Shown here one piece after another: positions 43,075 through 52,279 of a DNA stretch of 64,000 bases; within the stretch, counting starts at the first letter, position 1, and every line of letters begins with the position of its first letter. The stretch lies in contig PEAA01000001.1 in NCBI GenBank assembly GCA_002753275.1, positions 1-64,000 on the forward strand, written 5' to 3'. This stretch comes from Zetaproteobacteria bacterium. Its GTDB lineage: Bacteria > Pseudomonadota > Zetaproteobacteria > Mariprofundales > Mariprofundaceae. Both the position numbers and the translations under genes were made by a program. The notes beneath the pieces are model-generated. The model saw nothing but the letters and a program-made list of their open reading frames with translations. It searched no databases and had not been told where the DNA came from.

Positions 43075-43860
43075 TTATTCTACTTCGCTCTCTTCATTCG
43101 AAATCTCATCGGATAGCGGTGCTTTGCTCACCTTATCTTTGCCAGGCTTGTCATTGTTATAGTTGACCAACTCTTTGACCGCTTTAATATCAATATGGCG
43201 TACATCTTGGCCACTGGTAATGTAGATGACCAATTTTGCCACATTGACAGCATGATCAGAGATGCGTTCAAGCTGTTTGGCGACTGTCGATAAATTTAAC
43301 AATTGAGAGATCGAGCGGGGATCTTCCATCATGTAGGTCAATACTTCGCGCTGCATGGCACGATGGCGTTTATCAATTTTTTTATCGCGTGCAATCACAT
43401 CAATGGCCATTTCAATATCACCACGCGCCAACGCATCGAGGGCATTGTGCATCTGTTCGACAACCTTCTCGCCCATTGTTTCGATGGAATCATAATAGTT
43501 GGAAGGTTGTTTGCTGGTTTGCAAGGCCGTTGTTGCGATACTTGCCGCCAGATCGCCCATGTGTTCGAGATCTTCAACCAGTTTAATAATGGCAATGATA
43601 AAGCGTAAATCACCTGCTGCAGGTTGACGACGAACCATGATGTTGCGGGTCAACTCATCGCATTCAACCTCAAGTGCATTAATGGTTTTATCGCGTTCAA
43701 TGGTTTTTCGCGCCAAGCTTTCATCTTGGTTAATAATGCTGGATATTGCATTTTCAATGGCGCGCTCAACCAAGGCCCCCATAGATAAAATCAATTTTTT
43801 GACATCATCCATCTCTTGATCGAACCGTTTCATAATATGGTGTGGAGCATTTACTGGCAT
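43075..43860 (-). CDS. phoU: Phosphate transport regulator PhoU, copy 2
   Basis: 261 residues, with PhoU three-helix bundles in tandem (NIMVRRQPAAGDLRFIIAII; DHAVNVAKLVIYITSG). PhoU represses the PhoR-PhoB system and moderates Pst transport when phosphate is plentiful. Metal-binding (E/D)xxxD repeats of the family are recognisable. The C-terminal 50 residues (LVNYNNDKPGKDKVSKAP) are a charged extension absent from copy 1. ATG 43860 is preferred because GAGGT lies seven bases upstream. It ends the pst operon and is 43 bases after copy 1. Confidence 0.95.
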   Translation of the reverse strand: MPVNAPHHIMKRFDQEMDDVKKLILSMGALVERAIENAISSIINQDESLARKTIERDKTINALEVECDELTRNIMVRRQPAAGDLRFIIAIIKLVEDLEHMGDLAASIATTALQTSKQPSNYYDSIETMGEKVVEQMHNALDALARGDIEMAIDVIARDKKIDKRHRAMQREVLTYMMEDPRSISQLLNLSTVAKQLERISDHAVNVAKLVIYITSGQDVRHIDIKAVKELVNYNNDKPGKDKVSKAPLSDEISNEESEVE

Positions 43861-43903
43861 CGTCATACCTCGTGTACAAATTGATGGAATAGCATCGTTG
43901 ATG

Positions 43904-44551
43904 CTATTCAGAATAGGAAATTACTAATTTTGAAACATGCACGGCATGGTCAGCAATGCGCTCAAGCTGTTTGGCTACATTGGAGAGGTTTAATAAATGT
44001 GAAATTGAATGCGGTTCCTCAAGCATGTAAGTCAACACTTCGCGTTGGATGACCCGGTAGCGTTTATTAATTTTTTGATCACGGTCAATCACTTTATGGG
44101 CCAATTTGCTATTGCTGTTTGCCAATGCTTTGAAGGCATCATGCACCTGAATGACTACTTTTTCACCCATCGATTCAAGTGAATCATAATACTCAGTCGG
44201 TTGTTTCACCGTTTGCAGCGCCATGGATGAGATGCTGGCTGAAAGGTGTCCCATGTATTCCAGATCTTTTAAGAGCTTAATGATGGCAATAATAAAACGA
44301 AGGTCACTGGCTGTGGGCTGGCGACGCACAATAATTGATTGCGCCAACTCTTCACATTCTGCCTCCAATTCCTCAATTTTTTTATCGCAATTTAAAATTT
44401 TATGGGCCAAATCTTCGCTGGGGGAGATGAGGGTCTCCATGGCATCTTTGATTGACTGCTCCACCAATTCACCCATCGATAAAACAATCTCTTTCACTTC
44501 TTCAAGCTCTTTATCAAAGCGTTTCATAATATGTTGCGTTTTTTTTGCCAT
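43904..44551 (-). CDS. phoU: Phosphate transport regulator PhoU, copy 1
   Basis: 215 residues, a close paralogue of the gene just downstream: HIMKRFDKELEEVKEIVLSMG and DLRFIIAIIKLLKDLEYMG align almost throughout. It lacks the C-terminal extension of copy 2. GAGGTAG precedes the ATG. Two adjacent phoU genes in a pst operon are not usual and suggest a local duplication with divergence, perhaps one acting on PhoR and the other on Pst. Confidence 0.94.
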   Translation of the reverse strand: MAKKTQHIMKRFDKELEEVKEIVLSMGELVEQSIKDAMETLISPSEDLAHKILNCDKKIEELEAECEELAQSIIVRRQPTASDLRFIIAIIKLLKDLEYMGHLSASISSMALQTVKQPTEYYDSLESMGEKVVIQVHDAFKALANSNSKLAHKVIDRDQKINKRYRVIQREVLTYMLEEPHSISHLLNLSNVAKQLERIADHAVHVSKLVISYSE

Positions 44552-44606: not shown

Positions 44607-45371
44607 TTAACCAAATCGACCAGTGATATAATCTTCTGTTTGTTGCTCTTTGGGTTGAGTAAACATCGCCTCTGTATCTGAATACTCAATCAAATCGCCC
44701 ATGTAGAAAAAAGCTGTTTCATCGGAGATGCGTGCAGCTTGCTGCATGCTGTGAGTCACCATAATAATGGTGTAATCTTGCTTCAACTCATCGATTAACT
44801 CTTCAATCTTGAGGGTTGCGATTGGATCAAGGGCTGAGCATGGTTCATCCATTAAAATAACACTGGGTTGCACGGCAATGGTTCGAGCGATGCATAAGCG
44901 TTGCTGCTGCCCCCCGGAAAGAGCGGTTCCTGGTTGTTGCAACTTGTCTTTCACCTCATCCCACAGTGAGGCTTTGCGCAGGGATGTTTCAACCAACTGA
45001 TCCATCTCTATGCCCTTTTTGGCAAGGCCATGAATACGCGGGGCATAGGCAATGTTTTCATAAATGGTTTTAGGAAAAGGATTGGGTTTTTGAAAGACCA
45101 TGCCAACATGGGTGCGCAGTTGAACAACATCCACAGATGGATCATAAATATTTTCACCGTCCATCAAGATCTTTCCCTCAATACGACACGCTGCGATTTG
45201 ATCATTCATGCGATTGAGGCAGCGTAGAAGGGTTGATTTACCGCAGCCTGAGGGGCCAATGAAGGCCGTAACTTTATTTTGTTTGATGTCGAGATCAATG
45301 CCATGCAGAGCCTCTGAGTCACCATACCAAAGCTTGAGTTGTTTAATGCTGATTTTCATGGAAGAACTCAT
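44607..45371 (-). CDS. pstB: Phosphate ABC transporter ATP-binding protein
   Basis: 254 residues. Walker A is [14 protein letters not shown], the Q-loop [12 protein letters not shown], the ABC signature [16 protein letters not shown] and Walker [14 protein letters not shown], followed by His of MVTHSM. It energises Pi uptake. The ATG at 45371 follows AAGGTGG and lies one base after the pstA stop. Confidence 0.97.
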
Positions 45372-45372
45372 G

Positions 45373-46539
45373 TTACCACCTTGTCTCAAATCGTTTTCTA
45401 AGCCAAACAGCTAAGCCATTTAAACTCAATAAAATTGCCAATAACACTAAAATCCCTGCGGCAGCACGCTCTGAATAGGCGCGAATTGATTCGCCTGTCC
45501 ATGTGTAAATTTGTGCAGGAAGTACCGTGGCTGCATCCAAAAAACCACCTGGGGAGTCAGGAACATACGCCATCATACCGATAATTAGCAGTGGAGCCGT
45601 TTCACCCATGGCTTGCGCCAGACCAATGATTGAACCTGTTAATATACCCGGAAAAGCAAGGGGAAGGACATGGTGCCAAATGGTTTGCCAACGCGATGCG
45701 CCTAGGCCAACAGCCGCTTCTCGAATCGAGCCAGGAACGGCACGCAACGCTGCCCTCGCACTGATAATGATGACGGGGAGCGTCATCAATGCGAGGGTCA
45801 ATCCACCTGTTAACGCCGAAGAGCGCGGTGTGCCAAAAAATGAGATAAAAATCGCCAAGCCAAGCAGGCCGAACAAAATGGAAGGGATGGCGGCAAGGTT
45901 GTTGATATTGACCTCAATAACCTGTGTTAACCGATTATCAGGCGCATACTCCTCCAGATAAAGAGCCGTCATTACGCCAATAGGGAGTGCCACAATCATG
46001 GTAATGAAAAGCAAGTAGAGTGAGCCTATCGTGGCCGATTTAATCCCTGCCAACTCGGGCATTTTGGAATCACCATTGGTGAAGAAACCACTGTTAAAGT
46101 TGAGTTGAATTGCGCCAACGGTCACCAGTTCATCGACCAGTTTTTTATGTTTAGCCTTTAAACGGTTGGGTTTACCTTTGAGGTATTGATCAATGTCTGA
46201 ATCCAGAACAACCCACTCCTGTACCGTGGTGCCCAACAACTCTGGATGATCCTTCATCTTGAGTGGCAAGGTGCGCAGATAACCGCGGCTTACCAGTTTG
46301 TTGATCGGGCTTTCTACCGCTTTATTGTAGTTGTCGAGGCTCTCTTGGTTGTAATGGACATCGACCAACACCTCCGCTTGCTGCATGGCTGAAGCACCTT
46401 TGGAGATGATATCGTAGAAAAAGAAGACCAAAAAACTTGCAGCAAGCAGTAGTGCCATCATGGAGAGGGCTTTGAAGCGTTTTTCTGCGCGAAAGCGTTT
46501 TTGGTGTGCAGAGGATTGAGATAATATACTTTCAGACAT
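45373..46539 (-). CDS. pstA: Phosphate ABC transporter permease PstA
   Basis: 388 residues. An N-terminal membrane segment and an unusually long periplasmic insert of about 100 residues ([16 protein letters not shown]) precede the usual five-helix permease core. The [20 protein letters not shown] motif (EAA loop) contacts PstB. It forms the channel with PstC. The N-terminal extension makes it about 90 residues longer than E. coli PstA. It begins three bases after pstC stops. Confidence 0.95.
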
Positions 46540-46542
46540 AAT

Positions 46543-47754
46543 TTACTCGTATTGCTGACGAAAACGGCGTACCACATAAATCGATACGATGTTAAGCATC
46601 AGCGTAATAATTAGAAGTACCAATCCTAAGCCAAAGGCAGATAAGGTCTCAGGACTGTCAAAGGATTGGTCGCCTGTAAGCGCATCAACAATGCGTACGG
46701 TGACGGTGGTCATCCCCTCAAGAGGGTTCCAGGTGAGGTTGGGGCGAAGACCTGCTGCCATCACCACAATCATTGTTTCACCCAAGGCGCGCGATACGCC
46801 CAACAAAAAAGCGGCGACAATGCCTGGAAGGGCAGCTGGCAATAAGATATGGCGGATGGTTTCTGAAACGGTTGTACCGAGCGCCAATGAACCATCACGC
46901 ATATTTTGCGGAATGGATCGAATCACATCATCCGAAAGGGACGAGATGAAAGGGATAATCATAATGCCCATGACCAAGCCAGGGGTGAGAATGTTGGTAT
47001 AATCAGCGGCAATGCCCATCGATTCGGCAAAATGAACAACCATGGGACTGATAGTGACAGCAGCAAAGAATCCGTAAACAACGGTAGGGATTCCCGCTAA
47101 CACTTCAAGCGCAGGTTTCGCAATGTTACGAACACGATTGCTACTGTATTCAGCGGTGTAAATAGCGGAAAGAAGTCCAATGGGAACGGCAACAAGCATG
47201 GCGATGAGCGTCACCATGAATGTACCTGCAAAGATAGGAACAGAGCCAAACATGCCTTTGGTATTGCCAGGGGTTGCATCATCAGGGGTCCATGAAGTAC
47301 CGGTGACAAAATCCCAGAAACTGACCATTTTAAAAAAGTGCGTGGCTTCAAAAATGACGGAGAGAACAATGCCGACAGTCGTTAAAATGGAGATCATTGC
47401 GGCCGTTACAAGTAGCCAACGAATGAAGCGCTCAACAGAGTCTCTGGCTTTCAAACTTGGAGCAATGGAGTTGAGACCGTACACAGCTCCGACGAGCACC
47501 ATGACCGTAACAAATGGCACATAGAGAGAAGCCGAGGCGTGGTAGAGGTCAAAAAGGTGTAAAATAGAGAAGAATGTGCCAATGATGATCGCAGGAAGGG
47601 TCGCGCAAATAATGGCATGCCATGCATAATAGCCAGGAAGGGAGTGCCATGAAGTGGTTGATAATCTTGAAACCTTTGTCCGTGCGATAATATAAATCAA
47701 TGCAAGCAGGGGTATGATTGCGAGCAATATGTTGCCATGAAGTTCAAATGTCAT
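46543..47754 (-). CDS. pstC: Phosphate ABC transporter permease PstC
   Basis: 403 residues with about seven membrane segments, two more at the N-terminus than E. coli PstC. The permease core contains GTFMVTLIAMLVAVPIGLLS and LVMGIMIIPFISSLSDDVIR, then the coupling motif ALGTTVSETIRHILLPAALP. It pairs with PstA. It is separated from pstS by a hairpin-bearing gap of 106 bases. Confidence 0.95.
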   Translation of the reverse strand: MTFELHGNILLAIIPLLALIYIIARTKVSRLSTTSWHSLPGYYAWHAIICATLPAIIIGTFFSILHLFDLYHASASLYVPFVTVMVLVGAVYGLNSIAPSLKARDSVERFIRWLLVTAAMISILTTVGIVLSVIFEATHFFKMVSFWDFVTGTSWTPDDATPGNTKGMFGSVPIFAGTFMVTLIAMLVAVPIGLLSAIYTAEYSSNRVRNIAKPALEVLAGIPTVVYGFFAAVTISPMVVHFAESMGIAADYTNILTPGLVMGIMIIPFISSLSDDVIRSIPQNMRDGSLALGTTVSETIRHILLPAALPGIVAAFLLGVSRALGETMIVVMAAGLRPNLTWNPLEGMTTVTVRIVDALTGDQSFDSPETLSAFGLGLVLLIITLMLNIVSIYVVRRFRQQYE

Positions 47755-47860: not shown

Positions 47861-48925
47861 TTATTTCTTAGATTTTAAATCATCCATAGTCACTTGAGTA
47901 TGGTTAGCAAAACGGGCACGGCTTGCATCGCGTTCTGCTTTTGGAAGTGGAATCAAGCCGATATCGCTCAAGTTTCCACCTTCACCAATCATTTTCTCAT
48001 TCAAGAACAGGTTCACATAATCGGTCATGCCTTTGATCTGATTGATATGAGAGTTTTTGATGTAGAAGTAGAGTGAACGGGAGACTGGATATTCACCTGA
48101 AGAGATTGCAGAAGGTTGTGGAGAGACACCCTCAACATTGGCTGCGCTCAAACGCTCAATGTTCTCTTCATAAAATGAGTAACCAAAGATACCGAATGCA
48201 GACTCATCTTTGAGCAACTTCTGTACGATCAAGTTGTCATTTTCACCCGCTGGAACATAAACGCCATCGGTACGAATAGTTTTATATTTTTTATATTTCT
48301 TATTTTTCTCTTTATCTGCATGGTACAATGCAGTGTAGACATCCATGTGTTTGGTCAAATGCTTCATGACCAAATCTTCAAACGCATCACGGGTTCCTGA
48401 AGATGTTGGTGGGCCGTAAAACACAATTTTACGATGAGGCAACGAGGCGTTGATTTGATCCCAGTACTGATAAGGGTTGGCAACCAATGATTTACCATCT
48501 TTCGAAGGAACTTCAGCTGCTACAGCCATTAACAACTCGTTACGGGTAAGGTTGATTGCGCCATTTTTGTTGTTTTGTGCAATCACAATACCGTCAAAGC
48601 CAATCACAACTTCGGTAATGCTCTTCACGCCATTGCTTTCACATAAGGTGAGCTCTTTGTCTTTCATACGACGCGATGCATTGGTGATATCAGGCGTATC
48701 TAAGCCATCGCCTTCGCAGAACAGCTTCATGCCGCCGCCTGAACCCGTAGATTCAATTACTGGGGTTTTGAAGTGGGTGGTTGCACCCAATTCTTCAGCC
48801 ACATAACTGGCAAATGGATATACCGTTGATGAGCCAACAATGTTGATTTGGTCACGCGCTTGGGCTACGCCAGCACTTGCACAAATCGTTGCCACAGAGG
48901 CAATAGCAATCAGTTTTCGATTCAT
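47861..48925 (-). CDS. pstS: Periplasmic phosphate-binding protein
   Basis: 354 residues. The signal peptide is MNRKLIAIASVATICASAGV then AQA. Phosphate-binding segments are IVGSSTVYPFASYV, ESTGSGGGMKLFCEG, FDGIVIA and PTSSGTRDAFEDLVM. It captures Pi for PstCAB. The ATG at 48925 is preceded by AAAAGGAG; the longer frame upstream overlaps the chemoreceptor stop. A Pho-box-like element lies 48-65 bases upstream. Confidence 0.96.
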   Translation of the reverse strand: MNRKLIAIASVATICASAGVAQARDQINIVGSSTVYPFASYVAEELGATTHFKTPVIESTGSGGGMKLFCEGDGLDTPDITNASRRMKDKELTLCESNGVKSITEVVIGFDGIVIAQNNKNGAINLTRNELLMAVAAEVPSKDGKSLVANPYQYWDQINASLPHRKIVFYGPPTSSGTRDAFEDLVMKHLTKHMDVYTALYHADKEKNKKYKKYKTIRTDGVYVPAGENDNLIVQKLLKDESAFGIFGYSFYEENIERLSAANVEGVSPQPSAISSGEYPVSRSLYFYIKNSHINQIKGMTDYVNLFLNEKMIGEGGNLSDIGLIPLPKAERDASRARFANHTQVTMDDLKSKK

Positions 48926-48972
48926 ACGAAAAACTCCTTTTCTAAAATATGGTGAGATGGTAGTGGCTATTT

Positions 48973-48990
48973 GTGACATGATCATGACAA
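48973..48990 (-). promoter_or_regulatory. Pho-box-like element for pstS
   Basis: On the minus strand TTGTCATGATCATGTCAC: two 7-mers near CTGTCAT/C separated by four bases, the PhoB half-site arrangement. TACCAT ten bases downstream (48957-48962) could be the -10. The box overlaps the last codons and stop (TCA TGA) of the chemoreceptor gene. Confidence 0.6.
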
Positions 48991-51000
48991 TTCTTCAACA
49001 TTCATCGTATCTCGCATCACATGAAGACGGTTTAAAAAGTGATCAACGACCTTTTTTTGATTCAGTGCGGCATGGTCCAATACATCCGAAGAGGCCATTA
49101 ATTCACCATACATGTGCGAGACCTGATCGGTTGCGGAGAGTAGGTCTCGCACCGCCTCATGAACGCCTCCCATGCCATGCATTGTCATTTGCGAACACTC
49201 TGAAATGGCTGAGATTGCAGAAGATTGTTGTTCCATTGCCGCTGAAACCGTGCGTGTATGCTCAGAAATGTTTTGAATAATCTTTGCAATATCGTGAATC
49301 GCGACCACGGCATGTTCGCTCTCTTTTTGCATGCCGGAGATTTGTTGTTCGATCTCTTTTGTTGCTAGGGCTGTTTGATGCGCCAAATCTTTGACTTCGT
49401 TGGCAACAACTGCAAAGCCTCGCCCTGCATCGCCTGCGCGTGCAGCCTCGATGGAGGCGTTGAGCGCCAAGAGGTTGGTTTGATCGGCAATGTCGTTGAT
49501 AGTGTTGACGACATTGCCAATATCTGAAGAGACCTTCTTTAAATGCTGCACAATTTCACCCGTGCGAGAAGCCTCTCGTTCGGCATTCTCTGCGATGGTT
49601 AATGCATCTTGCACCCGTTTGGCGACATCAATCACGACGATATTCATATCATCCGATGATTGTGCGGTCATCTTGGCATTGTTGAGCCCATCATCGGTCC
49701 CTTGCGAAACGCGCCCCGTTTGTTGCATCACTTCTTGCGACATCTCTTGCAGGGCTGCTGCTGTCGCATTGAGTTCGGTCGAGGATGTGGATACAGACTC
49801 GACGAGTTCGGAGACCTGCTTTTCAAATTCACGGATCAATTGGTTTTCAGCCTCTTGTTGATCAAGGCGTTTTTGCATTTCGGCTTCGCGTTTGGCATGA
49901 CGCGTCTCTTTGGCCAGTTGATGCTTTTCAATATTTTTCTGAAAGATTGAAATGGCTTTGGCCAATTTTCCAATAATATCTTTGTTGCCAGTGCAGGGAA
50001 TGTCTAGCCCGGTCTCTCCTTTGCTTAACTTCTGCGTGGTCTCAATGATCGCATGCACAGGTTTGGTGATCGAGCGCATAATAACATAGCCCACCAGTAA
50101 AAAGAGGAGCAATGTTAATGATCCGCCAATTAAAACTTCAATCTTGGTGTTGGCGACGGTCTCAAGGCGCTCTTGCTCGGCGGCATTGCAGGCACGCAAG
50201 GATTCCTCCTCAATTTTATTAAGAATTGGAACAATCGCCTCTTGCGCTTCATTGAGCTGGCTCTGTTCATGATCAATGCTTTGTGCCAGTGCCGCAAATA
50301 ATTTCATGTAGCGCTGATAGTCGAGAATCAAGGATCGAATGGTCTCTTTTTGTTGTCCGTTCAAACCATGTGATTCATCGAGCATGGTTGTTAAACGGTC
50401 GCCCTCTTCGGCAACACTACGCAGGTGACCATCACCTTTTTGAATAATAAACTCTTTCTCTTCCAACCGCATAACCAGCATCGCATTATTCAACTTTTCT
50501 TCGGCATGGTAGCGGCGAAATGATTTTTCCATTTTACGAATCGATTTTTTCAATTGTCCCTGCATACCATCCAATTCGGTGAGTCCCATGCGCTGCCTGT
50601 AATTGGTGAGTAGCTTGAAATGGGTCTGGTGCGTATCAATGAGATCTTTTAACTGCAAAAGTGCAGCTGAATCAATGGTGAGGTCAGACTCTAGCAACTG
50701 TGCAGCGCTCTGTTCGGCCAACTTTGCATGGTGTAAGTAATCTTCGATAAACTTGAGATCGTCATGCAGCATAAAAAGTTGTTGATTCCGCCCCATCTCG
50801 AGGGCGTTGACATTGATGGTTGAGACTTCTTGCCGCAGTGCTTGCCATTTTTGTAAATGTCCTATGCTCTGCTCAAGATGGTAGTTGGCGATGGTCATTT
50901 GAGAGACAATTAAAATGACAGCCGCCAATCCAAGAATCAGCAGAGCACCGATGCGTAGCTCAAGTGATATGTCACCTAAAAATGTCTTATGTTTATGCAT
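48982..51000 (-). CDS. Methyl-accepting chemoreceptor with a long helical periplasmic sensor (HBM-like)
   Basis: 672 residues. TM1 is near residue 18-38 (GALLILGLAAVILIVSQ), a periplasmic helical sensor of about 260 residues follows, then TM2, a HAMP domain and the signalling domain. The conserved hairpin tip is LALNASIEAARAGDAGRGFA and VVANEVKDLAHQ. The sensor contains GMQGQLKKSIRKMEKSF and VMRLEEKEFIIQKGD, which resemble the helical bimodular (HBM) fold. A Pho-box-like element lies upstream, and pstS follows with the reading frames 56 bases apart. This suggests a receptor for phosphate or PstS; ligand is inference. ATG 51000 is chosen because AGGGTGG precedes it. Confidence 0.92.
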   Translation of the reverse strand: MHKHKTFLGDISLELRIGALLILGLAAVILIVSQMTIANYHLEQSIGHLQKWQALRQEVSTINVNALEMGRNQQLFMLHDDLKFIEDYLHHAKLAEQSAAQLLESDLTIDSAALLQLKDLIDTHQTHFKLLTNYRQRMGLTELDGMQGQLKKSIRKMEKSFRRYHAEEKLNNAMLVMRLEEKEFIIQKGDGHLRSVAEEGDRLTTMLDESHGLNGQQKETIRSLILDYQRYMKLFAALAQSIDHEQSQLNEAQEAIVPILNKIEEESLRACNAAEQERLETVANTKIEVLIGGSLTLLLFLLVGYVIMRSITKPVHAIIETTQKLSKGETGLDIPCTGNKDIIGKLAKAISIFQKNIEKHQLAKETRHAKREAEMQKRLDQQEAENQLIREFEKQVSELVESVSTSSTELNATAAALQEMSQEVMQQTGRVSQGTDDGLNNAKMTAQSSDDMNIVVIDVAKRVQDALTIAENAEREASRTGEIVQHLKKVSSDIGNVVNTINDIADQTNLLALNASIEAARAGDAGRGFAVVANEVKDLAHQTALATKEIEQQISGMQKESEHAVVAIHDIAKIIQNISEHTRTVSAAMEQQSSAISAISECSQMTMHGMGGVHEAVRDLLSATDQVSHMYGELMASSDVLDHAALNQKKVVDHFLNRLHVMRDTMNVEELS

Positions 51001-51064
51001 GAATAACCACCCTGATATATGCTTACTTTTCCTATGAAGTTTAGGGGGGGAATATGTCATGCAC

Positions 51065-51082
51065 ATGACGACAAGATGACAG
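51065..51082 (-). promoter_or_regulatory. Pho-box-like element for the chemoreceptor
   Basis: On the minus strand CTGTCATCTTGTCGTCAT: 7-mers CTGTCAT and TCGTCAT four bases apart, close to the PhoB consensus. TATTCC ten bases downstream (51049-51054) could be the -10. The gene start is 48 bases beyond it. Confidence 0.6.
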
Positions 51083-51110
51083 ATTATGAGTAGTATAATC
51101 GTTATCAAAT

Positions 51111-51142
51111 AAAAAAGGCCCGCACAAGTGCGAGCCTTTTTT
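51111..51142. terminator. Bidirectional-looking terminator between porin and chemoreceptor genes
   Basis: A stem (AAAAAAGGC..GCAC / GTGC..GCCTTTTTT) with one internal mismatch and A/T runs on both sides. It ends the porin transcript on the minus strand. Confidence 0.8.
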
Positions 51143-51172: not shown

Positions 51173-52210
51173 TTAGAATGTGAATTGTGTAAAAAGACCG
51201 TACTGCTTGTTTCCAGCAGTGTTTGCACCAGCTTTTGTGGTTTTGTCATCAATGTATGCAAGGCTTAACGTGACACCTTTGCTTACAAAATAGTCAGCAC
51301 CTACAACAAAGCGCTGTCTTTTTGTTGGGCTAACAGCTTTGTCTTTGTTGTTTTCAATTTTTGCAAAGGCACCAACATTGTCAATATGTGCCCAGCCCCA
51401 AAGTGCTGTAGCAGTAATGTCATTGGCAACAGTGTTGCCGAAGTTTTTCACAGAGATGTAGTTACCGCCAACACGGAACTCATCGGTACCATAAGAAGCC
51501 ATGAATTGAGCTAGTTTTTCTTTTGCTGCAGGATTCGCTACTGCTGCAGAGGCTTTCTTTCCACGGTAGCCTGTACGATACTGTGCAGAAAGGTCGAGGC
51601 CCTTAACAGGTGCTACTGAGATACGAGAGTTGTAATCAATTGAACCCGTAGCCGATGCTGCTTTACCATAACCGCCACCATTGGTTGCAGTAATCCAATA
51701 GTTTACCATGCCATCAGCAACTTTGCCTTTCAAGCCAATGCCAGCATCTGCTGAGTCATCAAATTTAAATTCATCAGTGGTAACTTTAGCAACAAAGCGA
51801 TGTTTCCAAAGGTGCTGTTCGTAATCAATCCATGGTGTATGTGACATACCCAAACGCAATACTGCAGCATCATCAAAATGACCTTGGATATAGGCATATT
51901 TTACAAAAACATTGTTCGCTTTTCCTAAAGCTTCTGCAGCTGTATCTGTAGTGAAACGAACAGACCATACAGCGTCTTTTTTATATTTAACATCGAAGTA
52001 GAAACGCGTTAAATTCAAGCCTGTAGTGTCAGCAGCAGGAGCGACTTGCCCTGGTAGAACCAATGGTTTTTTTGCTGAGAAGTCAGCAAACATTTTTGCG
52101 CCAACGCTCAATTTAGAATCACCATCTTGTGCAACAGTCATGCCTGCAAAGGCTGGGGCTGCGAAAGCCATGCTTGCTGCTACAGCAGCAACGAGTTTTG
52201 TTTTTTTCAT
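51173..52210 (-). CDS. Outer-membrane porin, Pho-regulated paralogue
   Basis: 345 residues. The signal peptide is MKKTKLVAAVAASMAFAAPA then FAG. The mature part is beta-strand rich, ends in QYGLFTQFTF with a terminal Phe, and resembles phosphate- or anion-type porins of proteobacteria. It shares PWIDYEQHLWKHRFVAKVTT and DDSADAGIGLKG with the neighbouring porin, so the two are tandem duplicates. GAGGAG precedes the ATG at 52210. A clear Pho-box-like tandem lies 52-69 bases upstream, so induction by phosphate starvation is likely. Substrate is not visible from sequence. Confidence 0.88.
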   Translation of the reverse strand: MKKTKLVAAVAASMAFAAPAFAGMTVAQDGDSKLSVGAKMFADFSAKKPLVLPGQVAPAADTTGLNLTRFYFDVKYKKDAVWSVRFTTDTAAEALGKANNVFVKYAYIQGHFDDAAVLRLGMSHTPWIDYEQHLWKHRFVAKVTTDEFKFDDSADAGIGLKGKVADGMVNYWITATNGGGYGKAASATGSIDYNSRISVAPVKGLDLSAQYRTGYRGKKASAAVANPAAKEKLAQFMASYGTDEFRVGGNYISVKNFGNTVANDITATALWGWAHIDNVGAFAKIENNKDKAVSPTKRQRFVVGADYFVSKGVTLSLAYIDDKTTKAGANTAGNKQYGLFTQFTF

Positions 52211-52261: not shown

Positions 52262-52279
52262 GTGACACATTCGTGACAC
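52262..52279 (-). promoter_or_regulatory. Pho-box-like element for the porin at 51173
   Basis: On the minus strand GTGTCACGAATGTGTCAC: two identical 7-mers GTGTCAC four bases apart. TAGCCT ten bases downstream (52246-52251) could be the -10. The strongest of the three elements. Confidence 0.65.

Follow-up and report, generated by a model that had tools for sequence, protein, structure and literature searches.

Phosphate chemoreceptors and the receptor gene beside pstS

To our knowledge, phosphate taxis mediated by a binding protein has been documented at the molecular level for one receptor only, CtpL (PA4844) of Pseudomonas aeruginosa. The ligand-binding domain of CtpL shows no binding of inorganic phosphate (Pi) and binds Pi-loaded PstS at 1:1 stoichiometry with a dissociation constant (KD) of 3.7 μM, and deletion of pstS strongly reduces taxis at low Pi (PMC4926252). 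A chemoreceptor gene lying directly upstream of pstS, and very likely under PhoB control, is described here from a Zetaproteobacteria bacterium (assembly GCA_002753275.1, contig PEAA01000001.1, positions 1 to 64,000); the whole 64,000-nucleotide (nt) stretch is referred to as the window, and genome-wide counts refer to the 1.86 Mb genome. If the reading proposed below is true, this receptor would join CtpL as a further candidate, distinct in structure and with its presumed partner, the binding protein, encoded next to it, and the two would form a clean pair for testing both binding-protein signalling to large helical sensors and the repeated origin of such receptors. Judged by promoter sequence, it would also be a case of chemotaxis genes brought under the Pho regulon in a bacterium other than Pseudomonas.

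The closest described systems each share part of this arrangement. Like CtpL, which is made under Pi limitation, is tied physiologically to PstS and has been described as HBM-type (PMC5126104), the window receptor carries a large helical sensor; unlike the window receptor, ctpL lies outside the pst operon (PA4844 versus PA5369 for pstS), and contact with PstS is, for the window receptor, a proposal from position and co-expression. CtpH of P. aeruginosa is likewise a receptor of Pi starvation, whereas its sensor is a four-helix bundle that binds Pi itself (PMC4926252). In Campylobacter jejuni, a chemoreceptor gene is also tied to a phosphate-scavenging gene: tlp2 shares a transcription unit with phoX, and a phenotype in Pi taxis is known (PMC6250842), the partner there being a phosphatase gene and here pstS.

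The sequence-only reading of this DNA had placed a chemoreceptor just upstream of pstS, and a complete receptor of 672 amino acids (aa) is indeed encoded there (48982..51000, minus strand), directly upstream of pstS-pstC-pstA-pstB-phoU. Its open reading frame (ORF) spans 48982-51108 on the minus strand; the ATG at 51000, preceded by GGTGG, is the credible start because the longer frame from a TTG would read across the Pho box discussed below. The protein has the full layout of a methyl-accepting chemotaxis protein, with two transmembrane (TM) helices, a periplasmic sensor, a HAMP domain (E 6e-6) and an MCPsignal domain (E 5.6e-34), the helical sensor of about 250 aa lying between TM1 and TM2, which appear as maxima of hydrophobicity in the 19-residue windows that begin at residues 15 and 289. 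In a search of genome contigs for related loci, the full receptor gave a single match, in the signalling domain only. Genes for CheA and flagellin are present in the genome, which makes a motile, chemotactic cell plausible. At least six flagellin genes stand in tandem (G000:C13:451-6453), with others on further contigs.

Pho boxes and promoter architecture

When all 7-4-7 sites of the window were scored, on either strand, the receptor box, CTGTCAT-cttg-TCGTCAT (51065..51082, minus strand), ranked first and the pstS box, TTGTCAT-gatc-ATGTCAC (48973..48990, minus strand), second, with only 0.2-0.3 sites of this quality expected in the window. The Pho-box-like 7-mer tandems with four-base spacing that had been pointed out earlier before the two genes are thus its two top-scoring sites. 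The pstS box stands at a similar distance to pstS as the boxes of relatives, and its first half-site overlaps the end of the receptor coding sequence, stop codon included (TTG TCA TGA). The -10-like sequences claimed downstream of the boxes were also found: TACCAT lies exactly 10 nt past the pstS box, and a weak TATTCC lies 10 nt past the first pair of the receptor box. The receptor promoter holds three half-sites in an 11-bp register, the third of which, ATGACAT (51054-51060, minus strand), forms a second, overlapping pair with an alternative -10, TAAACT, 10 nt beyond it. Both sequence marks of a Pho promoter, a 7-mer pair with a 4-nt gap and a -10 hexamer about 10 nt past the box, are accordingly in place at the two genes.

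The receptor needs a promoter of its own, since a hairpin terminator (51111..51142, minus strand; RNA fold -19.9 kcal/mol, z -4.3) separates it from the preceding porin gene, porin 1. This hairpin, which has a T tract, had been missed by a simple pattern scan; the same kind of scan called no terminator between the receptor and pstS. Porin 1 probably belongs to the local Pho-box set as well, through a weaker site, GTGTCAC-gaat-GTGTCAC (52262..52279, minus strand), followed exactly 10 nt downstream by TAGCCT, which like the TACCAT of pstS fits TAnnnT. This assignment rests on position and on relatives because two-mismatch sites are near genome background (128 sites versus 94 in the reversed control).

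Genome-wide, no more than 11 sites match YTGTCAYN4YTGTCAY with one mismatch or none, and the receptor and pstS boxes are two of them. Among the other strong sites, two overlap before phoB (three half-sites), and single ones precede a gene for polyphosphate kinase (ppk) and a unit of a PAS protein and a receptor. Among relatives of the class, a good box stands upstream of pstS in 24/48 (reversed control, 1/48) and upstream of the porin gene in 30/38 (reversed control, 3/38), and TAnnnT occurs 9 or 10 nt past the box in 81% of 58 relatives' promoters, while none of the other spacings tested exceeds 3%. Because a box with this -10 geometry recurs before the pstS and porin genes of relatives, the receptor is very likely under PhoB control. 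The earlier placement of receptor and pstS in the Pho regulon is therefore strongly supported on sequence grounds, namely by site rank, genome rarity, the known Pho genes among the strong sites and the shared promoter architecture.

The sensor domain

The sensor stretch compared, including its TM flanks, spans 50089..50925 on the minus strand. It had been called HBM-like, a label that appears acceptable as a remote relation and that does not extend to the curated Pfam family: the window receptor has no match to Pfam HBM (PF16591) at E ≤ 10, and HBM is absent at E ≤ 1 from the families listed for 14 sensors of the window sensor's family. The remote link comes from profile comparison, in which the sensor family gave a full-length alignment to genuine HBM sensors (98.9% in hhalign) and still did so when TM segments were removed (97.8%; reversed control 1.3%, column shuffles ≤0.3%). 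It is thus a superfamily relation of the family profile, and the window sequence taken alone reached 22.6%. This remote full-length similarity is shared with the HBM receptors McpS, McpQ and McpK (PF16591); unlike in those receptors, a Pfam match is missing and organic-acid binding is without support here. The sensor had no match in the PDB, and its profile had weak matches only. An AlphaFold model of the sensor alone from the single sequence is all-helical at low confidence (predicted local distance difference test, pLDDT, 65; predicted template modelling score, pTM, 0.33), and a Foldseek search with this model returned chance matches only, none of them significant.

Homologous sensors from other Pseudomonadota show 15-23% identity and have GLxExxGLxGxLR...RRHEKDF...R in common. 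Within this family the window sensor is an outlier that lacks the otherwise invariant R/D/R: at four positions where 38 homologues have R (38/38), D (38/38), R (37/38) and again R (38/38), it carries L, E, Q and K, respectively. The corresponding module 1 motif is gone, and the structural G, E, K and F positions are kept. In HBM sensors, conserved residues line the ligand cavity (PMC5126104), and by this analogy the lost charged residues suggest that the window sensor may have lost or changed a small-ligand site.

This observation bears on two other ways of reading a PhoB-induced receptor. It could bind phosphate or another phosphorus compound directly, by a CtpH-like mechanism and with no contact to PstS. 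CtpH, with a KD of 22 μM, shows that receptors of Pi-starved cells can work by binding Pi directly (PMC4926252), and the evidence for Pho regulation (box rank, rarity and -10 geometry) would be the same; against this stand the larger, HBM-like sensor and the loss of the conserved charged motif, owing to which no Pi-binding residues are identifiable in the window sensor, and we hold direct binding to be unlikely. Alternatively, PhoB could drive a foraging receptor that senses a non-phosphorus cue useful in starvation, for example a metal, a surface or an organic acid. Organic acids are what most of the HBM receptors studied so far detect (PMC5126104), Pi deficiency also leads to accumulation of McpB/Aer2 in P. 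aeruginosa (PMC9864684), and the second unit with a Pho box in this genome combines a receptor with a PAS protein, an arrangement commonly linked with redox or oxygen. However, insertion directly between a porin gene and pstS favours a link to phosphate, and this sensor has lost the charged motif that its relatives conserve, so that a foraging role appears less likely still.

Proposed phosphate taxis and its weighing

The best-supported reading overall, and on balance a probable one, is that of a PhoB-induced chemoreceptor giving phosphate taxis under starvation. Briefly, when phosphate is scarce, phosphorylated PhoB would bind the separate Pho boxes before porin 1, the receptor and pstS, and the means of crossing the outer membrane, of capturing phosphate at high affinity and of steering by it would be produced together. 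The receptor would enter the CheA/CheW array via its conserved signalling domain and bias swimming towards phosphate. The most economical input would be Pi-loaded PstS bound to the helical sensor, in the manner of PstS and CtpL in P. aeruginosa, and PstS, made next door from the same type of promoter, would be expected in large excess. Gene structure, promoter architecture and the presence of CheA and flagellin genes are supported by the sequence, from which PhoB binding at the receptor box is inferred. That the receptor mediates taxis to phosphate is likely, and that it signals via PstS rather than by direct binding of Pi or another compound is a tentative proposal, for which plausibility as in CtpL comes indirectly, from position and co-expression. 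The loss of charged residues is compatible with a lost small-ligand pocket. It is conceivable, if rather doubtful, that a receptor of an HBM-like family, once it had moved into the pst operon, gave up the small-ligand pocket of its ancestors and now responds to PstS loaded with Pi, which would amount to an independent origin of PstS-mediated phosphate taxis with a sensor unrelated to CtpL and the partners side by side under twin Pho promoters.

Several points weigh against the proposed reading of this locus. A ligand-binding role of the lost charged residues in relatives is an assumption. No homology was detected between the window sensor and CtpL-like sensors (0.4% in hhalign with the family profile and 0.1% with the window sensor alone), and no class relative with informative flanks carries a receptor upstream of pstS, as detailed further on. 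The CtpL-like set comprised four sensors chosen by aroQ-accB synteny, which we take to be the position of ctpL, and the CtpL orthology of the four is itself inferred. At 273-279 aa these sensors approach the reported length of 286, and in two cases a Pho-like site stands at -68. By the hhalign test the window receptor is not a member of the CtpL family but may work like CtpL; what remains of the earlier comparison with the Pseudomonas PstS-linked receptor is the functional likeness, while homology to CtpL-like sensors was not detectable. Pseudomonas matches to PF16591 had also been tried as a stand-in for CtpL, failed in that role and were replaced by the synteny set. Three of the CtpL-like receptors picked by synteny (L264, L266 and L270) have no Pfam HBM match, although CtpL has been called HBM-type (PMC5126104).

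Comparison of pst neighbourhoods fetched from 50 class relatives, 44 of which were informative (at least 2 kb upstream of pstS), revealed a porin gene before pstS in 39 and a receptor in none (0/44). The usual order is porin-pstS, and conservation of the receptor-pstS pair, which the sequence-only reading had proposed to check, fails in the class and was rejected on these counts. With none of the 44 carrying the receptor, it is by this comparison a lineage-specific insertion between porin and pstS in this genome, the only one that represents its genus. Restriction of the pair to a single genome is also what chance insertion of a receptor gene would produce, with an incidental promoter likeness and no Pho control. 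Yet at the genomic density of 11 sites in 1.86 Mb such a site is expected about 4e-4 times per 150 bp on the right strand, and the promoter combines three half-sites in register with a correctly spaced -10, which leaves chance insertion very improbable.

Beyond the class, 4/60 further Pseudomonadota pst loci have a receptor within 5 kb. One of these four, in a distant genome (L290:4968-8544), carries a receptor divergent from pstS, with a long helical sensor of another kind and without a good Pho box. In two genomes of genus g4, of the same family (L248 and L249), a related HBM-like receptor lies about 8.4 kb from pstS with phoBR between them, in a block of about 18 kb that holds the HBM-like receptor, LemA, phoBR, porin, pstSCAB, phoU and ppk. 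Because the best Pho-like site before a sister genome's copy is weak, the g4 receptor was not counted as the same unit as the window pair.

Neighbouring genes and a second receptor unit

On the minus strand, the gene order in the window is porin 2, porin 1, terminator, receptor, pstS, pstC, pstA, pstB, phoU and phoU. Porin 1 (51173..52210) is Porin_O_P / Porin_4-like and the usual neighbour of pstS in relatives. The pstS gene (47861..48925) encodes a periplasmic phosphate-binding protein (PBP_like_2, E 1.3e-41) that matches the solved phosphate-binding protein 9jwy (E 1.9e-84, phmmer). It is followed, in an order conserved in relatives, by the permease genes pstC (46543..47754) and pstA (45373..46539), the ATPase gene pstB (44607..45389), whose true start probably lies slightly inside this ORF, and a phoU-like gene (43904..44551), all on the minus strand.

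The PAS-protein and receptor unit mentioned above lies at G000 contig C25:19498-21967 (locus L167:2499-4968). Its Pho box, CTGTCATGAAATTGTCAT, has zero mismatches to the pattern and stands 90 bp before the gene of a 170-aa PAS protein, which is followed immediately by that of a 608-aa chemoreceptor. The box was not found in the unit's best relatives, and the unit is probably a second chemotaxis unit in the Pho regulon.

A second phoU-like copy (43075-43866) stands in tandem with the first after pstB. A few relatives, among them L111, L138 and L140, have such a tandem pair (43075-44551 in the window) too, and most of the relatives fetched have a single copy.
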